A program made the translations under genes and the position numbers. A stretch of DNA of 64,000 nt from Bacteroidales bacterium (GTDB lineage: Bacteria > Bacteroidota > Bacteroidia > Bacteroidales > Bacteroidaceae), in NCBI GenBank assembly GCA_015060965.1, contig SUXN01000002.1, forward strand, positions 1-64,000, written 5' to 3'. A model generated the notes under the pieces. It did no database searches. It saw only the letters and a list, made by a program, of their open reading frames with translations, and had not been told where the DNA came from. This document shows, piece after piece, positions 55,354 through 63,402 of the stretch (position 1 is its first letter; every line of letters starts with the position of its first letter).

Positions 55354-56353
55354 TAATCTGCTGTTACCCGTTGCTGCCGTTGTGCTGCTATTCCTGCTCT
55401 TTATGCTGAATATTTTCTGCGGTGCAGTGGATGTGCCGTTTGTGGAGGTCTTCAAGGCAATTGCGGGTGAGAGTACGAATGAGATGTGGCGCCTTATTGT
55501 TGTAGAGACCCGTTTGCCGCAGGCTATTGTGGCGTTGCTTGCCGGTGCGGCAATCTCGGTGGCCGGTCTGATACTCCAGACCCTTTTCAATAATCCTCTG
55601 GCAGGTCCCGAGGTTCTTGGAATAAACAGCGGTGCAGGTCTTGGCGTGGCTCTTGTGATGCTTCTTTCGCATGGAGCTGTTGTGAGCGGAGCGTTTGGCG
55701 GCTTTGTTGCCGTTCTGTTGGGGGCTTTCATTGGCGCGCTGCTTGTGATAGCTCTGATACTCTCACTCTCCTCAATATTGAAGAACAAACTCTATCTGCT
55801 CATTGCCGGCGTGTCAATAAGCTATCTCGTTTCTTCCGTTATATCGGTGTTGAACTATTTTGCTACATCCGAGGGTGTGCACTCGTACATGATTTGGGGT
55901 ATGGGCAGTTTCGGCGCGGTATCTATGGGACAGATGCAGTGGTTCGCTCTTCCGTTGCTGCTGTTGCTTGCCGTTGCGCTGTTTATGATGAAACCCATGA
56001 ATGCGCTACTTCTGGGTGATGACTATGCGGCCAATCTGGGTGTTGATGTAATGGGTACAAGAGTGGTTCTGCTGGCAGTTACCGGCCTTCTTACCGCTGT
56101 TGTGACTGCGTTCTGCGGTCCTGTGGCGTTCATAGGTCTGGCTGTTCCACATATTGCCCGTCTTTCCCTTAAGACGGGCAACCACCGTCTTCTTTTGCCG
56201 GCGACAATGGTTGTGGGTGCTTCGGTTGCGCTTTTGTGCAATCTCCTGACGATGTTGCCTGGCGAGAGCGGGCTGTTGCCGTTGGGTGCAATAACACCGC
56301 TTGTGGGTGCTCCGGTTATAATTTATGTCGTGCTCAAGGATTGCCGTTTGTAA
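55334..56353 (+). CDS. FecCD-family ABC importer permease
   Basis: 339-residue membrane permease of the BtuC/FecCD family with about ten transmembrane segments. Signature runs are RLPQAIVALLAGAAISVAGLILQTLFNNPLAGPEVLGINSGAGLGV, the coupling region GLAVPHIARL(S/L), and GALIGVMGALLV-like helices; NNLLLPVAAVVLLFLLFMLNIF is the first. It pairs with the binding protein whose gene overlaps it by 20 bases. In related operons a FecE/BtuD ATPase gene follows; here 80 bases of AT-rich DNA and then the ilv promoter come next. Confidence 0.9.
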   Translation: MRECINNNLLLPVAAVVLLFLLFMLNIFCGAVDVPFVEVFKAIAGESTNEMWRLIVVETRLPQAIVALLAGAAISVAGLILQTLFNNPLAGPEVLGINSGAGLGVALVMLLSHGAVVSGAFGGFVAVLLGAFIGALLVIALILSLSSILKNKLYLLIAGVSISYLVSSVISVLNYFATSEGVHSYMIWGMGSFGAVSMGQMQWFALPLLLLLAVALFMMKPMNALLLGDDYAANLGVDVMGTRVVLLAVTGLLTAVVTAFCGPVAFIGLAVPHIARLSLKTGNHRLLLPATMVVGASVALLCNLLTMLPGESGLLPLGAITPLVGAPVIIYVVLKDCRL

Positions 56354-56422: not shown

Positions 56423-56454
56423 TTTGTATAAAACGAAAAAAGGGGTTATTTTTG
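56423..56454 (+). promoter_or_regulatory. Consensus promoter of the ilv operon
   Basis: TTTG (56423-56426), 20 bases, TATTTTTG (56447-56454): exact agreement with the Bacteroidota promoter. The expected mRNA start is near 56461, 34 bases before the leader ORF. Confidence 0.75.
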
Positions 56455-56494
56455 TCGAATGAAAGCGACTGCTTTTTGCAAATAGGAAACAGGT

Positions 56495-56551
56495 ATGCGC
56501 CAGTCAATAATTTTTACCCGAATTAATATTATAACCTCTCTTCTGCGTTAG
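56495..56551 (+). CDS. ilvL: Isoleucine-rich leader peptide of the ilv operon (ilv attenuator)
   Basis: An 18-codon [21 protein letters not shown], stop TAG at 56549-56551. Five of the 18 residues are isoleucine (with ATT-ATA in tandem at 56528-56533, and ATA-ATT at 56507-56512) and two are leucine, next to the stop; no valine is present. An AGGAAACAGGT stretch precedes the ATG as a fair ribosome-binding site. It is placed between a consensus promoter and an intrinsic terminator in front of ilvD, exactly where leader peptides of attenuated amino-acid operons lie. The protein product itself has no other expected role. I call it from composition, position and paired RNA structure; no comparison with related genomes was possible here. 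Confidence 0.7.
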
Positions 56552-56615
56552 GTCGGGTTTGGCTGTGTCTGTTATTCATCAGGTTGCCTTTCTCCCGTAC
56601 GAGAAGGGCGTTTTT
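56516..56615 (+). promoter_or_regulatory. Transcription attenuator of ilvDBNC (RNA segments 1-4)
   Basis: Segment 1 (ACCCG, 56516-56520, within the leader ORF) can pair with segment 2 (CGGGT, 56554-56558). Segment 2 (CGGG 56554-56557 plus GGC 56561-56563) can instead pair with segment 3 (CCCG 56594-56597 plus GCC 56586-56588). Segment 3 (GCCTTTCTC, 56586-56594) otherwise pairs with segment 4 (GAGAAGGGC, 56601-56609), forming the terminator. Ribosomes stalled at isoleucine codons would cover segment 1 and free segment 2 for the antiterminator. Confidence 0.6.
56586..56615 (+). terminator. Attenuator terminator upstream of ilvD
   Basis: Nine-base-pair stem (56586-56594 with 56601-56609, one T-G pair) around CCGTAC followed by G and five T residues, 17 bases before the ilvD ATG. 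It lies inside the operon leader, so it is regulatory. Confidence 0.75.
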
Positions 56616-56631
56616 GTTAAAAGGAATTCTT

Positions 56632-58434
56632 ATGAAGATAAAGTTGAGAAGTGCCCAAAGCACCGAGGGACGTCGTATGGCCGGAGCCCGTGCGCTGTGG
56701 ATAGCCAACGGTATGAAACGTGAGATGTTCGGCAAGCCTATTGTGGCTATTGCAAACTCTTTTACACAACTTGTTCCCGGTCACACACATCTGCACGAGG
56801 CGGGGCAGATAGTCAAGGCCGAGATTGAAAAACTCGGTTGCTATGCAGCGGAGTTCAATACCATAGCCATTGATGACGGTATTGCTATGGGTCATGACGG
56901 AATGCTCTATTCATTGCCTTCGCGCGACATCATCGCCGACAGTGTGGAGTATATGTGTAATGCGCACAAGGTAGATGCTCTTGTCTGTATCTCGAACTGC
57001 GATAAAATAACTCCGGGTATGCTCATGGCGGCAATGCGCCTTAATATCCCCACGGTCTTTGTATCAGGTGGCCCGATGGAGAAGGGAACATGGAAAAACG
57101 AGAACCTTGACCTTGTAATTGCTATGGTCAAGGCTGCCGATGAGAGTGTCAGTGACGAGGAGCTTGCCGAGATTGAGAAACGTTCATGTCCGGGTTGCGG
57201 ATGCTGCTCGGGTATGTTTACCGCAAATTCCATGAACTCGCTCACCGAGGCTATCGGCTTGTCGTTGCCCGGTAACGGAACAATCCTGGCAACTCATACC
57301 AACCGTGTTCAGCTTCTCAAGGATGCTGCAAAGGTGATTGTGAAGAATGCCATGAAGTATTATGGCGAGGGCGACACATCCGTGCTCCCACGCAGCATTG
57401 CCACACGTGAGGCTTTCCTCAATGCCATGACTCTTGACATAGCAATGGGCGGTTCTACAAATACAATCCTCCACCTTCTTGCTGTAGCGCAGGAGGCCGG
57501 AGTGGAGTTCAAGATGGAGGATATCGACAAGTTGAGCCGCAAGGTTCCCTGTCTGTGCAAGCTTGCTCCCAACGGACAGAAATATGCAGTACAGGATTGT
57601 GGCCGTGCAGGCGGTATAATCGGCATCATGGGCGAGCTTGCAAAGGGCGGTCTGCTCGATACTTCCGTTGTGCGTGTAAACGGTGCCACATTGGGTGAGG
57701 ATATCGCAAAATACTCGATAACAGGTGATGTGGTAGATGACGAGGCCATGCGGATATACAGCACAGCACCGGCCAATGTGTTCTGCAACAGGATGGGCGA
57801 GCAGAGCTGTACATACGATTCACTTGATAAGGACCGTGAGAACGGCTGTATACGCTCTCTTGAGAATGCCTATACAAAGGACGGAGGCCTTGCAATACTC
57901 TTCGGAAATATAGCCAAGGACGGTTGTGTGGTAAAGACTGCGGGCGTGGATGAGAGTATCTGGAAGTTCAGCGGCAAGGCAAAAGTGTTCGACTCGCAGG
58001 AGGCTGCCGTAGAGGGTATCCTTGGCGGTGAAGTCCAGGCAGGTGATGTGGTGGTGATTATCTACGAGGGTCCCAAGGGTGGCCCCGGTATGCAGGAGAT
58101 GCTTTATCCTACATCCTACATCAAGTCACGTCATCTCGGTAAGGAGTGTGCGCTCATTACCGACGGCCGTTTCAGCGGAGGAACATCGGGCCTGAGCATC
58201 GGACATATCTCGCCCGAGGCTGCTGCCGGTGGCAACATCGGTAAACTGCGCGACGGTGACATTATTGACATTGATATCCCCGCACGTTCAATCAATGTGA
58301 GGCTGAGCGATGAGGAGCTCGCGGCACGCGAGATGTTCCCGCTGACACGAGACAGGGTTGTTTCAAAGAGCCTCAAGGCGTATGCAAATATGGTAAGTTC
58401 TGCCGATAAGGGTGGAGTCAGAATAATAGACTAA
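56632..58434 (+). CDS. ilvD: Dihydroxy-acid dehydratase
   Basis: 600-residue iron-sulfur dehydratase forming the 2-keto acids of valine and isoleucine. [38 protein letters not shown] and the C-terminal [26 protein letters not shown] are family signatures; cysteines near 123 and 194-202 hold the cluster. The frame is open 16 codons upstream, but the ATG at 56632 ([16 protein letters not shown]) follows AAGGA and begins the conserved protein. First structural gene of ilvDBNC, 80 bases after the leader peptide stop. Confidence 0.95.
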
Positions 58435-58443
58435 GGCTAAACA

Positions 58444-60138
58444 ATGGGAAAAGATAAGATAACAGGTTGCGAGGCGCTGATGCGCTCGCTTGTGAATGAG
58501 GGAGTCGATACTGTCTTCGGCTATCCCGGCGGTTCGATAATGCCGGTGTTCGATGCGATGTACGACTACCAGAAAGTATTTCGCAGTGTGCTTGTACGCC
58601 ACGAACAGGGTGCAGTGCACGCCGCGCAGGGCTATGCCCGCAGTTCAGGCAAGGTTGGCCTCTGTATAGTTACAAGTGGTCCCGGTGCAACAAACACGCT
58701 TACAGGTATAAGTGATGCAATGCTCGACAGTACTCCTGTGGTTGTAATTGCAGGTCAGGTGCCTACGGCGGTGTTGGGTACTGATGCCTTCCAGGAGATT
58801 GACTTTGTTGGTATAACACAGCCTATAACAAAATGGAGCTATCAGATACGCCGTGCCGAGGATGTGGCATGGGCTGTCGCAAGAGCATTTTATATTGCCG
58901 GAACAGGACGTCCCGGGCCGGTGGTGCTTGACTTTACAAAGGACGCGCAGACCGCATTGACTGATTTTGAGCCGGTAAAGGTGGAGAATGTACGTAGCTA
59001 CATTCCTTATCCGACACCTGAAAAAGCGGCTGTAGAGGAGGCTGCAAGGCTTATCAACGCATCGAAGCGCCCATTTGTGCTTGTAGGTCAGGGCGTGGAG
59101 CTGGGCGAGGCGCATGAGGAACTTAAGGAGTTCATCGAGAAAGCCGATATCCCTTCGGCACGTACACTTATGGGACTTTCAGCGCTGCCTACCGACCATC
59201 CGCTCTGTGTGGGTATGTTGGGTATGCACGGTAATTATGGTCCTAATGTCAACACCAACGAGTGTGACCTGCTCATTGCCGTGGGAATGCGTTTCAGCGA
59301 CCGTGTGACAGGCAATGTAAAGACGTATGCCAAGCAGGCCAAAGTGATACATATCGATATTGACCATGCCGAGATAAACAAGAATGTCGTTGTGGACGTT
59401 CCTGTAGTGGGTGATTGCAAGGAGGTACTCCCGATGCTTACGGCGCTTGTGGAGAAGGCTTCACACAAGGAGTGGATAGAGAGCTTCCACAAATATAATG
59501 CGATAGAGCATGAGAAGGTAATTGAGAAGGCTCTTAACCCTGGTGAAGGCCCGTTGCTTATGGGTGAGGTCGCACGCAAGGTCAGTGAGGCCACAGGCAA
59601 CAGCGCAATCCTTGTTACCGACGTGGGCCAGAACCAGATGATGTCAGCACGTTACTTCAAGTTCACCAAGCCTCACAGCATCCTTACTTCAGGCGGTCTG
59701 GGAACAATGGGTTATGGTCTTCCTGCTGCCATCGGCGCAAAGATTGCTATGCCTGAGCGCACTGTATGTATCTTTGCCGGTGACGGAGGTCTGCAGATGA
59801 ACATCCAGGAGTTCGGTACAATAATGGAGCAGGGTGTGGCTGTGAAGATTATCCTCTTGAACAATAACTTCCTGGGCAATGTGCGCCAGTGGCAGGAGCT
59901 TTTCTTCAACCACCGTTATTCATGGACACCGATGCTGAACCCGGACTATGCTCTCGTGGCAAAGGGGTACGGTATCGCTTCTCGTCTGGTGACCGAGCGT
60001 GAACAGCTTGATGATGCCATTAAGGAGATGCTTGAGACTCCTGGTGCATTCCTGCTGCATGTGGCGGTGAAGGAGGAGGCGAACGTAATGCCTATGACAC
60101 CTCCGGGAGCAACAGTGAGCGAGATGATTTTTGAATAA
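58444..60138 (+). CDS. ilvB: Acetolactate synthase large (catalytic) subunit
   Basis: 564-residue thiamin-diphosphate enzyme that condenses pyruvate with pyruvate or 2-ketobutyrate. GCEALMRSLVNEGVDTVFGYPGGSIMPVFDAM with the catalytic glutamate in HEQGAVHAAQGYARS, the FAD-associated middle domain (GVELGEAHEELKEF), and the ThDP motif GDGGLQMNIQEFGTIMEQGVAVKIILLNNNFLG at the C-terminus are present. The start is 9 bases after ilvD. Works with IlvN, encoded 17 bases downstream. Confidence 0.95.
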   Translation: MGKDKITGCEALMRSLVNEGVDTVFGYPGGSIMPVFDAMYDYQKVFRSVLVRHEQGAVHAAQGYARSSGKVGLCIVTSGPGATNTLTGISDAMLDSTPVVVIAGQVPTAVLGTDAFQEIDFVGITQPITKWSYQIRRAEDVAWAVARAFYIAGTGRPGPVVLDFTKDAQTALTDFEPVKVENVRSYIPYPTPEKAAVEEAARLINASKRPFVLVGQGVELGEAHEELKEFIEKADIPSARTLMGLSALPTDHPLCVGMLGMHGNYGPNVNTNECDLLIAVGMRFSDRVTGNVKTYAKQAKVIHIDIDHAEINKNVVVDVPVVGDCKEVLPMLTALVEKASHKEWIESFHKYNAIEHEKVIEKALNPGEGPLLMGEVARKVSEATGNSAILVTDVGQNQMMSARYFKFTKPHSILTSGGLGTMGYGLPAAIGAKIAMPERTVCIFAGDGGLQMNIQEFGTIMEQGVAVKIILLNNNFLGNVRQWQELFFNHRYSWTPMLNPDYALVAKGYGIASRLVTEREQLDDAIKEMLETPGAFLLHVAVKEEANVMPMTPPGATVSEMIFE

Positions 60139-60155: not shown

Positions 60156-60710
60156 ATGGAAAAGAAACTTTATACAATCATTATATATACCGAGAACATC
60201 GCGGGTATGCTTAATCAGGTTACAGCCGAGTTCACCCGCAGAATGATGAATATTGACACTATAACAGCTTCATCTTCGTCGGTTGAAGGCGTACACCGTT
60301 ACACAATCTCATTGTGGGGTGAGGAGGATTCTGTGCATAAGGTAACAAAACGCATTGCCAAGAAGGTGGATGTCCTGAAGGCCGACTATTATGTCGACAA
60401 TGAGATATTCTTCCAGGAGGTTGCACTGTACAAGCTTTCTACACCGCGTTTGCTCGAGAACAACGAGATATCACGTATAATACGCCATAACAATGCGCGT
60501 GTGATAGAGGTGAATGCAAATTATACAGTTGTGGAGATGACAGGCCAGACAGATACCGTCGTGAACCTCTATAATGAGTTCGTGGCTCAGGACTGTATCC
60601 TGCAGTTTGTGAAATCGGGCCGTGTCGCGGTGCCACGTGCATCGCAGGCAAGTCTTGGCGATTTGCTTTTCGATGAGGATTATAAACGTAAATCAGTAAA
60701 AAACAGATAA
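60156..60710 (+). CDS. ilvN: Acetolactate synthase small (regulatory) subunit
   Basis: 184-residue regulatory subunit that gives IlvB its activity and valine feedback. An N-terminal ACT domain (YTIIIYTENIAGMLNQVTAEFTRRMMNIDTITASSSSVEGVHRYTISLWG, about 4-75) is followed by the IlvN C-terminal domain (IRHNNARVIEVNANYTVVEMTGQTDTVVNLYNEFV). Length and domain order are normal. Placed between ilvB and ilvC, four bases before ilvC. Confidence 0.93.
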   Translation: MEKKLYTIIIYTENIAGMLNQVTAEFTRRMMNIDTITASSSSVEGVHRYTISLWGEEDSVHKVTKRIAKKVDVLKADYYVDNEIFFQEVALYKLSTPRLLENNEISRIIRHNNARVIEVNANYTVVEMTGQTDTVVNLYNEFVAQDCILQFVKSGRVAVPRASQASLGDLLFDEDYKRKSVKNR

Positions 60711-60714
60711 AATT

Positions 60715-61758
60715 ATGGCAGAAATGAATTTTGGCGGAGTTGTTGAGAATGTAACCACTCCCGTAGAGTTTTCACTTGAGAAGGCACGTGAGGTGCTTAA
60801 GAACGAGAAAATCGCAGTGCTTGGATACGGCGTTCAGGGTCCTGGTCAGGCATGTAACTTGCGCGACAACGGTTTCAATGTTATCGTTGGCCAGCGTGAG
60901 GGTGCAACCTATGACAAGGCGGTAAAGGACGGTTGGGTTCCGGGCGAGACACTCTTCTCTCTTGAGGAGGCTGCCGAGCGCGGTACAATCGTATGTATGC
61001 TTCTTTCAGATGCTGCACAGATTGCTGTATGGCCCAGAATCAAGGGCTCGCTCACAGCAGGCAAGGCTCTCTACTTCTCTCACGGCTTCGGTATCAACTG
61101 GAGCGACCGTACAGGCATCGTTCCTCCACAGGATGTAGACGTGATTATGGTTGCTCCCAAGGGTTCGGGAACCTCTTTGCGTACAATGTTCCTCGAGGGC
61201 CGTGGTGTTAACGCATCTTATGCTGTTCATCAGGATGCTACAGGCAACGCTCTTGAGCGAGTTCTCGCTTTCGGTATCGGTATCGGCTCAGGTTATATGT
61301 TCGAGACAACATTCGAGCGTGAGGCTGTTTCGGACCTCACCGGTGAGCGTGGCTCACTGATGGGTGCTATCCAGGGACTCTTCCTTGCTCAGTACGAGGT
61401 TCTGCGTGAGAACGGCCACACTCCTTCAGAGGCTTTCAACGAGACTGTCGAGGAGTTGACACAGTCACTCATGCCTCTCTTCTCGGCAAAGGGTATGGAC
61501 TGGATGTATGCAAACTGCTCTACAACAGCACAGCGTGGTGCTCTTGACTGGATGACTCCATTCCACGATGCCATCAAGCCCGTGATGTACAAGCTCTATG
61601 AGTCAGTAAAGAGCGGTAACGAGGCACAGATCTCTATCGATTCGAACTCGCAGCCCGACTATCGCGAGAAGCTCAACGAGGAGCTCAAAGCGTTGCGTGA
61701 GAGCGAGATGTGGCGCACTGCAGAGGTTGTTCGCCGTCTGCGTCCCGAGAACAATTGA
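60715..61758 (+). CDS. ilvC: Ketol-acid reductoisomerase (class I)
   Basis: 347-residue NAD(P)H- and Mg2+-dependent enzyme turning acetolactate-type products into dihydroxy acids. The nucleotide fold is at AVLGYGVQGPGQACNLRDNGFNVIVGQREGATY, MVAPKGSGTSLR supports the active-site loop, and the C-terminal domain has the metal-binding pair in FERE.SDLTGERGSLMGAIQGLF and the ETVEELTQSLMPLFS segment. The loop after the second strand is GQREGATYDK; cofactor preference cannot be told with certainty. The operon ends here. Unlike some Bacteroides operons I know, no acyl-ACP thioesterase gene lies between ilvN and ilvC. Confidence 0.95.
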   Translation: MAEMNFGGVVENVTTPVEFSLEKAREVLKNEKIAVLGYGVQGPGQACNLRDNGFNVIVGQREGATYDKAVKDGWVPGETLFSLEEAAERGTIVCMLLSDAAQIAVWPRIKGSLTAGKALYFSHGFGINWSDRTGIVPPQDVDVIMVAPKGSGTSLRTMFLEGRGVNASYAVHQDATGNALERVLAFGIGIGSGYMFETTFEREAVSDLTGERGSLMGAIQGLFLAQYEVLRENGHTPSEAFNETVEELTQSLMPLFSAKGMDWMYANCSTTAQRGALDWMTPFHDAIKPVMYKLYESVKSGNEAQISIDSNSQPDYREKLNEELKALRESEMWRTAEVVRRLRPENN

Positions 61759-61777
61759 TCGGAGAAAACAATGATGC

Positions 61778-61813
61778 GAAAGGCTACGCTGTAGGGCGTG
61801 GCCTTTCTTGTTT
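61778..61813 (+). terminator. Intrinsic terminator of the ilv operon
   Basis: Twelve-base-pair stem (61778-61789 with 61796-61807, one T-G pair) around TGTAGG, followed by TTGTTT. Confidence 0.85.
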
Positions 61814-61861
61814 GATGATACTAATAGGGATTTTCCCCTCTTTTTGTAGGTTTTTTCCCTT

Positions 61862-61890
61862 TTTGCAGTGTTTATATGGTTATATTTTTG
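61862..61890 (+). promoter_or_regulatory. Promoter of the repeat-rich secreted protein
   Basis: TTTG (61862-61865) and TATTTTTG (61883-61890), 17 bases apart, slightly short of the ideal spacing. The leader is about 25 bases. Confidence 0.5.
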
Positions 61891-61920
61891 TAGCAGAATA
61901 AAAACCAAAGACGAACGACT

Positions 61921-63402
61921 ATGAAAGATCAGGTAATGAAAATGCAGTCAAGAGACGTCAAGATGATTGTTGCGATGTTTCTGGTTCTCGTTTCTCCGCT
62001 TGTTGCAACAGCACAGGTCGATGATGTGTATTTTGTACCCACAAAGGAGAATGAGGAGAAGGTACTGGTTGTGAAGAGTACAGCCGAGAAGTATAATATC
62101 GACAATACTTCTGCAAGTTCAATGCGCAATGTCGACGAGTATAACCGTCGTTCTACAGCATACACCAATGCTCCCGATGAGTATATCGATGAGAACTACA
62201 CCGATGAGTATGTGTATGAGGATGACTCTTACGATGACTACAGCTATTCGACACGCATAATACGTTTCCGTAATCCTCGCAGGGCTGTGTACAGTTCTAT
62301 CTATTGGGATCTGATGTACGGTTGCGGCATAAACGACTGGCTCATCTATGACAATGGATACAGCATCGACATATATCCTACTTATAATAATCCCTACTAT
62401 TTCTGGAGTGATTTCGCATTCTCTTGGAATCCTTTCAGCTGGTACAGTTGGCACAGTTGGCATCATGCAGCCCATTGGGGATGGCATCACCCTTATTACA
62501 GCCACTATTACGGTCACTGTTACGACCACTATTACGGTCACCACAACCACATAGCAATGCGTCCGAACCACAATTATTGGAGTCCTTCACGCCGTAACAC
62601 CCGTTATATCCCTACAAACGGTGCTGTAGGCGGGCGATATGAAAGAGGTGAGGGTAGCCGCGGAAACAGGGTGGCTGCATCTAACAATAACAGCAGCGGC
62701 AGAGTAAACCTTCGTGGTAGCGCGGGCAACCGCAGCGACAAGGTCGCATCGGCTGACAGAGGCGCTTCTGACAAAAACAGCAGCGGCAGAGTAAATCTTC
62801 GTGGTAGCACGGGCAACCGTAGCGACAAGGTCGCATCGGCTGACAGAGGCGCTTCTGACAAAAACAACAGCGGCAGAGTAAATCTGCGCGGTAATGCCGG
62901 CAACCGTGGCAACAATGCTGCTGCACAGAGCAGTAACAAGAGAAATGAGAATGGTGCAGGCTTCAAGATCGGCAGCAATCAGGGACGTGACAATGCGATA
63001 CGTCGTCAGCAACCGGCACGCGGTTCGGCGAATGTAAGCAACAGCCGTGCGGCAAGCAGTGGCAAGAGCAACAGCGAGAGTGTGCGTCAACAGAAAAGCA
63101 ACAGCACTTCAAACAGCTCAAACCGTGGCACTTCGGTCAACCGTAGAGGCTCAGGTTCTTCATCAGGGTACAACCGTCCGAGCAGCACCAGTGTGACACG
63201 TTCACGCAACTCTTCGTCATCAGAGAACCGCAGCAGTTCAAGCTACAGCCGCAGCTCAGGCAGCTCACGCAACAATAGCTCAAGCTATAGCCGTGGTTCA
63301 AGTTCACGCAGCAGCTCAAGCTTCGGTGGCGGTTCACGCAGCGGCTCTTCCGGCGGCTCACGCTCAGGTGGTTCACGCGGCGGTGGCGGCAGAGGCAGAT
63401 GA
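61921..63402 (+). CDS. Secreted low-complexity protein with tandem 29-residue repeats
   Basis: 493-residue exported protein without a recognised enzymatic domain. After an N-terminal hydrophobic signal (MIVAMFLVLVSPLVATAQ, processed near residue 31) comes an acidic Asp/Glu/Tyr-rich part (about 70-105), a His/Trp/Tyr-rich part (about 165-220, e.g. WHHAAHWGWHHPYY) and then a long Ser/Arg/Gly/Asn-rich region. In it two and a half perfect-period 29-residue repeats (from residue 257, pattern SSGRVNLRGSAGNRSDKVASADRGASDK) occur, followed by Ser/Arg tracts and GGSRGGGGRGR at the end. Basic, probably disordered or surface-bound; a metal-binding role for the histidine cluster is only a suggestion. Start ATG at 61921 or 61936. 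It precedes an OmpP1/FadL-like gene by 54 bases. Confidence 0.7.
   Translation: MKDQVMKMQSRDVKMIVAMFLVLVSPLVATAQVDDVYFVPTKENEEKVLVVKSTAEKYNIDNTSASSMRNVDEYNRRSTAYTNAPDEYIDENYTDEYVYEDDSYDDYSYSTRIIRFRNPRRAVYSSIYWDLMYGCGINDWLIYDNGYSIDIYPTYNNPYYFWSDFAFSWNPFSWYSWHSWHHAAHWGWHHPYYSHYYGHCYDHYYGHHNHIAMRPNHNYWSPSRRNTRYIPTNGAVGGRYERGEGSRGNRVAASNNNSSGRVNLRGSAGNRSDKVASADRGASDKNSSGRVNLRGSTGNRSDKVASADRGASDKNNSGRVNLRGNAGNRGNNAAAQSSNKRNENGAGFKIGSNQGRDNAIRRQQPARGSANVSNSRAASSGKSNSESVRQQKSNSTSNSSNRGTSVNRRGSGSSSGYNRPSSTSVTRSRNSSSSENRSSSSYSRSSGSSRNNSSSYSRGSSSRSSSSFGGGSRSGSSGGSRSGGSRGGGGRGR
62689..62910 (+). repeat. Tandem 87-bp coding repeats
   Basis: Copies begin at 62689, 62776 and 62863 (last one partial), period 87 bases, i.e. 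29 codons in frame. DNA identity between the first two is high (few silent or single-residue changes), implying recent slippage or duplication. Confidence 0.85.

Follow-up and report, generated by a model that had tools for sequence, protein, structure and literature searches.

Structure of the ilvDBNC locus

The analyzed stretch of DNA (64,000 nucleotides, below called the window) carries the operon ilvDBNC, whose four genes all match NCBIfam models (Table 1). The operon is preceded, in this order, by a promoter, a leader ORF, segments 1 to 4 of the competing helices and a U-run extending to 56615, with the ATG of ilvD at 56632, and a transporter-like gene on the same strand ends upstream at 56353. 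The promoter sequence is TTTG-N20-TATTTTTG; this pattern, with spacers of 19-21, matches three times in the window (0.48 expected), and -7-like boxes are located 5' of the leader or the terminator in 42 of the 43 loci of the genus. Transcription presumably starts near 56460.

Table 1. Positions of the features of the ilvDBNC locus in the window.
Feature	Positions	Strand	Basis
Bacteroidota-type promoter, TTTG-N20-TAnnTTTG	56423..56454	+	exact pattern match; -7 box 56447-56454
Leader peptide ORF	56495..56551	+	sequence; many relatives have ILV-rich ORFs at this position
Segment 1 (ACCCG), within leader ORF, partner segment 2	56516..56520	+	pairing probability 1.0 without ribosome
Segment 2 (CGGGTTTGGC), partner segment 1 or 3	56554..56563	+	duplex search and folding
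Segment 3 (GCCTTTCTCCCG), antiterminator partner of segment 2	56586..56597	+	duplex search, covariation, folding
Intrinsic terminator, segments 3 and 4, U-run	56585..56615	+	terminator scan; 3:4 covariation in relatives
ilvD, dihydroxy-acid dehydratase, first structural gene	56632..58434	+	NCBIfam NF009103/TIGR00110
ilvB, acetolactate synthase large subunit	58444..60138	+	TIGR00118
ilvN, acetolactate synthase small subunit	60156..60710	+	TIGR00119
ilvC, ketol-acid reductoisomerase	60715..61758	+	TIGR00465

The leader ORF (ATG at 56495, stop codon TAG at 56549-56551) comprises 18 codons, five of them for Ile, two for Leu and none for Val, so that 7/18 encode Ile or Leu; the codons at 56522-56533 are ATT-AAT-ATT-ATA. 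When the 130 bases preceding the terminator were shuffled 5000 times with dinucleotides preserved, 5.0% of the shuffled sequences had an equally ILV-rich ORF in place, and the window ORF, taken alone, is borderline and not striking.

Three alternative pairings are formed by the segments, all of standard pairs: 1:2 (56516-56520 with 56554-56558), 2:3 (56554-56557 with 56594-56597 and 56561-56563 with 56586-56588, the two blocks being separated by a U-rich internal loop) and 3:4 (56586-56594 with 56601-56609). Segment 2 begins two bases past the leader stop codon, and the first 9 bases of segment 3 are the 5' arm of the terminator, the antiterminator and the terminator thus sharing this arm and excluding each other, as in an attenuator. 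In the window, segment 2 can pair with segment 1, which a ribosome at the control codons would cover. The terminator scan yields a single match, 56585-56610 followed by TTTTTGTT (0.5 expected), with 10 pairs, 16 nt upstream of ilvD. The promoter, the Ile-rich leader, the three pairings, the terminator with its U-run and the gene content of the operon are thereby as described in the original prediction.

Predicted response to ribosome position

In the folding of the window, the ribosome was assumed to cover 12 nt beyond the first base of the A-site codon. With the ribosome absent, both the 1:2 pairing and the terminator have probability 1.0, and the antiterminator 0. As long as segment 4 has not emerged, a ribosome at any one of the five Ile codons gives the antiterminator a probability of 0.95-0.98, in agreement with the proposal that a ribosome stalled there covers segment 1. 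The probability is 0.99 at the first Leu codon, so Leu starvation could be sensed too, 0.52 at the second Leu codon, and falls to 0.16 at the stop codon, where the ribosome was proposed to mask segment 2. For a ribosome stalled at either of the last two Ile codons or at Leu, the terminator is the favoured structure at equilibrium, and therefore the switch must be kinetic, decided while transcription is under way. When the stall is at one of the three earlier Ile codons, leader bases at approximately 56538-56544 are additionally paired with segment 4 in the fold of lowest energy.

Leaders of ilvD in other genomes

The survey covered 188 regions upstream of ilvD, made up of 43 genus loci, 65 loci of other members of the family (out of about 207 further same-family genomes with ilvD) and 80 named loci; these rows include repeats (L013/L014 are identical; L050/L134 and L056/L179, each pair on contigs of equal length, are probably the same records). 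The named loci were the 80 best among at least 593, and the nearest among them are labelled Bacteroidaceae, Prevotella/Prevotellaceae, Phocaeicola and Bacteroides. A 5' terminator hairpin is present in 137 of the 188 loci. At the loose threshold, 86 of these 137 have an ILV-rich ORF, compared to 17.7 expected from shuffles, and at the strict threshold 64, compared to 4.3. The enrichment of the ORF in codons for the pathway products, although borderline in the window alone, is hence found across loci.

Among the 69 named loci from Bacteroidota or other, 31 have both the ORF and the antiterminator, seven the ORF without the antiterminator, 16 the terminator only and 15 none of these; the three loci labelled Prevotella are among the 38 failing to pass both tests. 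None of the 11 non-Bacteroidota named loci has an ILV ORF with a terminator. The ORF and the antiterminator precede ilvD in named loci of Bacteroides, Phocaeicola, Alistipes, Odoribacter, Marinifilum, Porphyromonas, Paludibacter and Prolixibacteraceae, typical leader peptides being MNVTTLNNLAVLHIIRFVVVTLGE in Phocaeicola faecalis (L056) and MYSGLFIIINLILVVLRR in Alistipes (L097). The codon-position signal of the relatives' ORFs is weak, with differences of 0.379/0.295/0.409 and 0.431/0.392/0.520, the third position being only slightly higher, and does not serve as proof.

The search for segment 2 was carried out in two versions. The narrower one was mostly limited to bases 3' of the stop codon, and 50 of 86 loci passed it, the P-value for the 2:3 duplex of the window being 0.07. 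After loci with segment 2 overlapping the end of the ORF were seen, the search was extended into the ORF end; in this wider version the window has P 0.025, and 70 of 83 distinct ORF-positive loci (three of the 86 were removed beforehand as duplicates) have a 2:3 duplex at shuffle P<=0.05. In these 70 loci, segment 2 pairs with its own segment 3 arm with the average energy of -16.7 kcal/mol, versus -13.0 kcal/mol with the arms of other loci, and the own arm beats the mean of the others in 56 of 70. Changes match across the helix, e.g. CCGTGAGAA/TTCTCACGG, TCGTAAGAA/TTCTTACGA and AAGAAGAAAGG/CCTTTCTTCTT, and the start of segment 2 ranges, from the 5th to the 95th percentile, from approximately 31 nt upstream to 4 nt downstream of the stop codon's end. 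By a generic ribosome-position score, predicted switching of at least 0.4 is observed in 68 of 86 loci versus 10.7% of shuffles. The window itself scores weakly, at 0.25, a value that 50 of 500 shuffles attain; one cause is that half of its antiterminator sits in the terminator loop, outside the scored arm.

Covariation of the two helices

Of the 70 loci passing the duplex test, 55 were used for alignment A1 and 15 were omitted as similar to the kept rows. The compensatory changes sought in the stems are present in both helices. The covariation score is 0.224 for 2:3 (0.151 in shuffled data) and 0.362 for 3:4 (0.248), and the cells changed on both sides number 29 versus 11.9 and 39 versus 9.6, respectively; none of 500 shuffles reaches any of these four values. 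The 2:3 figures are somewhat inflated, since the A1 loci had already passed the duplex test. Covariation scores of both helices also exceed those of all slides by 1-3 columns, the 2:3 slides of -2 and -3 columns having 28 and 25 two-sided cells versus 29, with the covariation score roughly halved. Counting the pairs changed on both sides gives an unremarkable number for 2:3 (6 versus 4.9, reached by 142 of 500 shuffles), and for 3:4 this measure is weaker, 40 of 500 shuffles reaching it.

Leaders of other genes

Other gene starts in the named loci (n=205) are preceded by a 5' terminator in 41 cases, with an ILV ORF in six and also an antiterminator in five; judging by their N-termini, these five are two ilvD genes with an alternative start (L086, L088) and three leuA genes (L104, L116, L120).

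Covariance model R1 was trained on 40 ilvD leaders, all from outside the genus. In 295 Bacteroidia genomes, searched with stricter filters at which weak matches are lost, it yields 22 matches at E<=0.001 in 18 genomes, with none in the window's own genome. The genes following these matches are ilvD (5), leuA (5), ilvB (5), ilvE-like (2), aspartokinase of the thrA type (1) and none of these (4); 14 of the 18 downstream proteins were checked with NCBIfam and four read by eye, and for both ilvE-like proteins the matches to branched-chain transaminase models fall short of the curated cut-offs. The 13 non-ilvD matches form the independent part, because the five ilvD matches include close kin of the training rows. 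The leaders are, for example, MLNSLIISLNIILLWERDRK before leuA and MKISTKNIISVVVVVS before ilvB, and the aspartokinase gene (L228, G476) is preceded by the Thr/Ile-rich leader MTINNTIITTIITTGIKDGGR and a terminator.

Similar ILV-rich leaders with terminators were seen in other Bacteroidia before leuA (L218, L219, L232, L234, L235), ilvB (L221, L223, L230, L231) and ilvE-like genes (L225, L229); L224 also precedes ilvB, and its ORF is not ILV-rich. The thrA-type genes at L238-L241 likewise have Thr/Ile-rich leaders and terminators, much like E. coli thrL. By a simple score, five of 30 thrA loci have a Thr/Ile-rich ORF with a terminator, nine of the 30 being unscored as they gave no start, and the positive L244 having a doubtful terminator.

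The leader is the sole R1 match in the 64 kb of the window (E 0.039). Genome-wide it ties with an apparent gene-end terminator (E 1.6), and R1 applied to the whole genome is too weak to single it out. No Rfam family matches at the gathering score in the window or in ten named loci, and at E<=10 the window has three chance-level matches to unrelated families. In particular, the covariance model of Bacteroid-trp (RF01692), which precedes trp genes and carries a Trp ORF, has no match in the window or in the ten named loci.

Variation within the genus

When the 43 genus loci are classed by eye, 24 have an ILV ORF and 19 lack it, 16 of the latter keeping a scored terminator; the automated count is 21 of 43, 18 of them also with the antiterminator, L033, L035 and L136 being below the automated threshold. 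On the tree of ilvD DNA (42 genus loci, some weak nodes; L138, with partial ilvD, left out), the ORF, as classed by eye, is present in all 21 loci outside the subclade of the window and in three of 21 inside. The expected conservation of an Ile-rich ORF in relatives thus holds outside the subclade but mostly fails inside it, where the ORF is kept by the window, L007 (G006) and L135 (G043) and is absent from the three loci closest by IlvD, L003-L005. The leaders of L007 and L135 are similarly Ile-rich and have their own matching segment 2 (duplex P 0.005 and 0.235, respectively, in the wider search; 0.01 and 0.03 in the narrower one). The R1 scores of the genus loci, L014 being omitted, lie at 31-56 bits in each of the 21 ILV loci that fall outside the subclade, and at 24 (the window), 22.5 and 19.1 bits in the three ORF-bearing loci inside it, where the ORF-less L006 scores 31.

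The three subclade leaders together contain 17 Ile, 4 Leu and 1 Val codons, versus 56 Ile, 55 Leu and 72 Val in the 21 leaders outside (Fisher P 0.0007, uncorrected for relatedness). A leuA gene above the cut-off is found in 27 of 44 genus genomes. The window's genome and 14 more ilvD-bearing genomes, all from the subclade and several incomplete, yielded none; in the window's genome, the only PF00682 match is partial, within a frame of 601 aa, and the leuA cut-off is not reached by any match. Retuning to Ile after the loss of leucine synthesis would fit these sequences, but three related loci cannot prove it. Loss of the leader as a consequence of leuA loss was rejected, as six leuA-bearing subclade genomes also lack the ORF (L138, one of the six, is placed in the subclade by leader similarity only). 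Upstream of leuA in ten genus members, one ATG ORF with at least five ILV codons was found, not leader-like by eye.

Several other features of these genomes were observed. By eye, leuA follows the apparent end of ilvC in five relatives (L201, L202, L203, L205, L206), and in the window (61758-61921) the ORF that comes after ilvC is unrelated and matches no NCBIfam model at E<=1e-30. In L003 and L004, only about 40 nt separate the -7 box from the terminator; the leader ORF is apparently deleted, and nearly everything between the promoter and the GAAAGG segment 2 seems to be lacking, a loss that would favour constant read-through. In L012, L017, L018, L019 and L138, a long hairpin with no ILV-rich ORF lies directly before the same terminator upstream of ilvD, its stems changing on both sides (TTCGG/CCGAA, TCGGG/CCCGA, TCCGG/CCGGA); it may be a sensor that uses no peptide, or what is left of the 1:2 hairpin. 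The search of the window's genome (94.9% complete) found no hisG and no chorismate-binding (PF00425, trpE-type) genes, and auxotrophy for His and Trp is possible. No terminator hairpin was found upstream of thrA on C41 of this genome. As it keeps ilvA (TIGR01127) along with ilvDBNC, it could make Ile.

Relation to known attenuators

Attenuation, a mechanism found in textbooks, was elucidated in enteric bacteria. The enterobacterial attenuators of ilvGMEDA/ilvBN, leuABCD and thrABC have the same short ORF rich in codons for the product, with the stop codon near segment 2, the same exclusive pairings 1:2, 2:3 and 3:4, and an intrinsic terminator before the first gene. The window differs from them in the phylum, the promoter type, the gene order ilvD-B-N-C and the nearly Ile-only leader; common ancestry with them is not shown.

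No experimental study of ilv attenuation in Bacteroidota was found in the open-licence literature. Lopatovskaya et al. 2010, cited in PMC4833913, may predict part of the present findings. The claim that the mechanism would be new to the phylum does not extend to predictions: in Flavobacterium psychrophilum, of the same phylum, strong clues for the same proposed mechanism, leader-peptide attenuation, have been described before amino-acid operons, though the passage in question names no ilv operon and "ilv" is absent from the main text (PMC9723704). Bacteroid-trp, which Table 1 of PMC2864571 gives as a cis-regulatory motif of Bacteroidetes and not as a switch, may be compared here, but it is a different RNA, unmatched in the window. 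An account of long 5' UTRs in B. thetaiotaomicron, with sORFs reminiscent of leader peptides, does not contain "ilvD" (PMC7366714), and "Bacteroid" is absent from the main text of a survey of premature terminators (PMC2965389). The ilvBNC attenuator of Corynebacterium (PMC11857589, PMC10272879) is an example of leader control of a branched-chain amino-acid operon outside enterics, but in Actinobacteria, and an ilvD motif is described in Veillonella (PMC8632094). Leader-peptide attenuation seems hardly studied in Bacteroidota, though related versions seem widespread there.

Model of regulation and alternative explanations

The anatomy of the locus, its conservation in the family, the covariation and the folding indicate that ilvDBNC is most probably controlled by ribosome-mediated transcription attenuation, read mainly by isoleucine. 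The start site, the translation of the leader, premature termination and the response to isoleucine are inferred parts of this model. RNA polymerase would start near 56460, with a ribosome translating the 18-codon leader behind it. When charged tRNA-Ile is scarce, the ribosome would stall at one of the five Ile codons and cover segment 1, segments 2 and 3 would pair before segment 4 emerges, and ilvDBNC would be transcribed, as no terminator would form. When Ile is plentiful, the ribosome would reach the stop codon and cover most of segment 2, so that segments 3 and 4 would pair and transcription would end near 56615. Without translation, segment 1 would hold segment 2, and the terminator would form. 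The geometry of classical ilv/trp-type attenuation, suggested in the original prediction, is supported by the recurrence in relatives, the covariation and the folding switch; this comparative case does not rest on the narrower duplex P-values, the counts of pairs with two-sided change or the R1 scores. For the family, there is good support for a genuine attenuator, of a known kind and in a phylum that has received little study, while its full working in the window's own lineage is likely but less certain.

The state of the subclade bears directly on this last point, since the window copy could be a decaying relic of a family-wide attenuator, in which the promoter and the terminator are left, the sensor is poor and ilvDBNC is fixed at a reduced level. 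The ORF is missing from 18 of 21 subclade loci and the terminator is kept in 16 of the 19 ORF-less genus loci, the R1 score of the window is low, no better than that of some ORF-less loci, Val codons are gone from its leader, and leuA, hisG and the chorismate-binding (trpE-type) gene were not found in its genome. Still, the three exclusive pairings are unbroken in the window and the ribosome spacing is preserved there, and L007 and L135 retain similar Ile-rich leaders with their own matching segment 2, leaving decay an improbable explanation. The retention of the terminator without the ORF in several near relatives, five of which share the non-peptide hairpin with two-sided stem changes, could also speak for attenuation sensed by RNA or protein without translation (a riboswitch, a T-box or an RNA-binding protein), the ORF being incidental. 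This is very unlikely, given the Rfam results for the window, chance-level only, and for the ten named loci, and since the peptide content follows the gene function (Thr/Ile before aspartokinase), which points to translation. That the hairpin merely terminates the upstream transporter gene, next to a chance ORF, is suggested by the proximity of that same-strand gene and by the borderline ORF statistics of the window alone, but the arrangement recurs in distant families, and the hairpin is 3' of the promoter, 16 nt before ilvD, so ilvD transcripts from this promoter must cross it; such an origin is hardly credible.

On a broader scale, we tentatively consider a scenario that is somewhat doubtful at present: attenuation of branched-chain amino acid and threonine genes may be class-wide in Bacteroidia and largely unrecognized, and the lineage of the window, where leuA was seemingly lost several times, may have retuned a Val/Leu/Ile sensor to a nearly pure Ile one, sister species having kept only the promoter and the terminator. 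If true, this lineage is a natural series of how such a switch is retuned and dismantled.

The leader would represent an RNA family with no present Rfam match. Bacteroidia, a class that includes dominant gut bacteria, use a promoter type different from that of enterics and little Shine-Dalgarno initiation. The attenuator would explain how they set the production of Ile, Val and Leu, and a conserved version of it would imply that ribosome and RNA polymerase are coupled closely enough in these bacteria for such a switch. Moreover, the system would give a ready genetic test of transcription-translation coupling.
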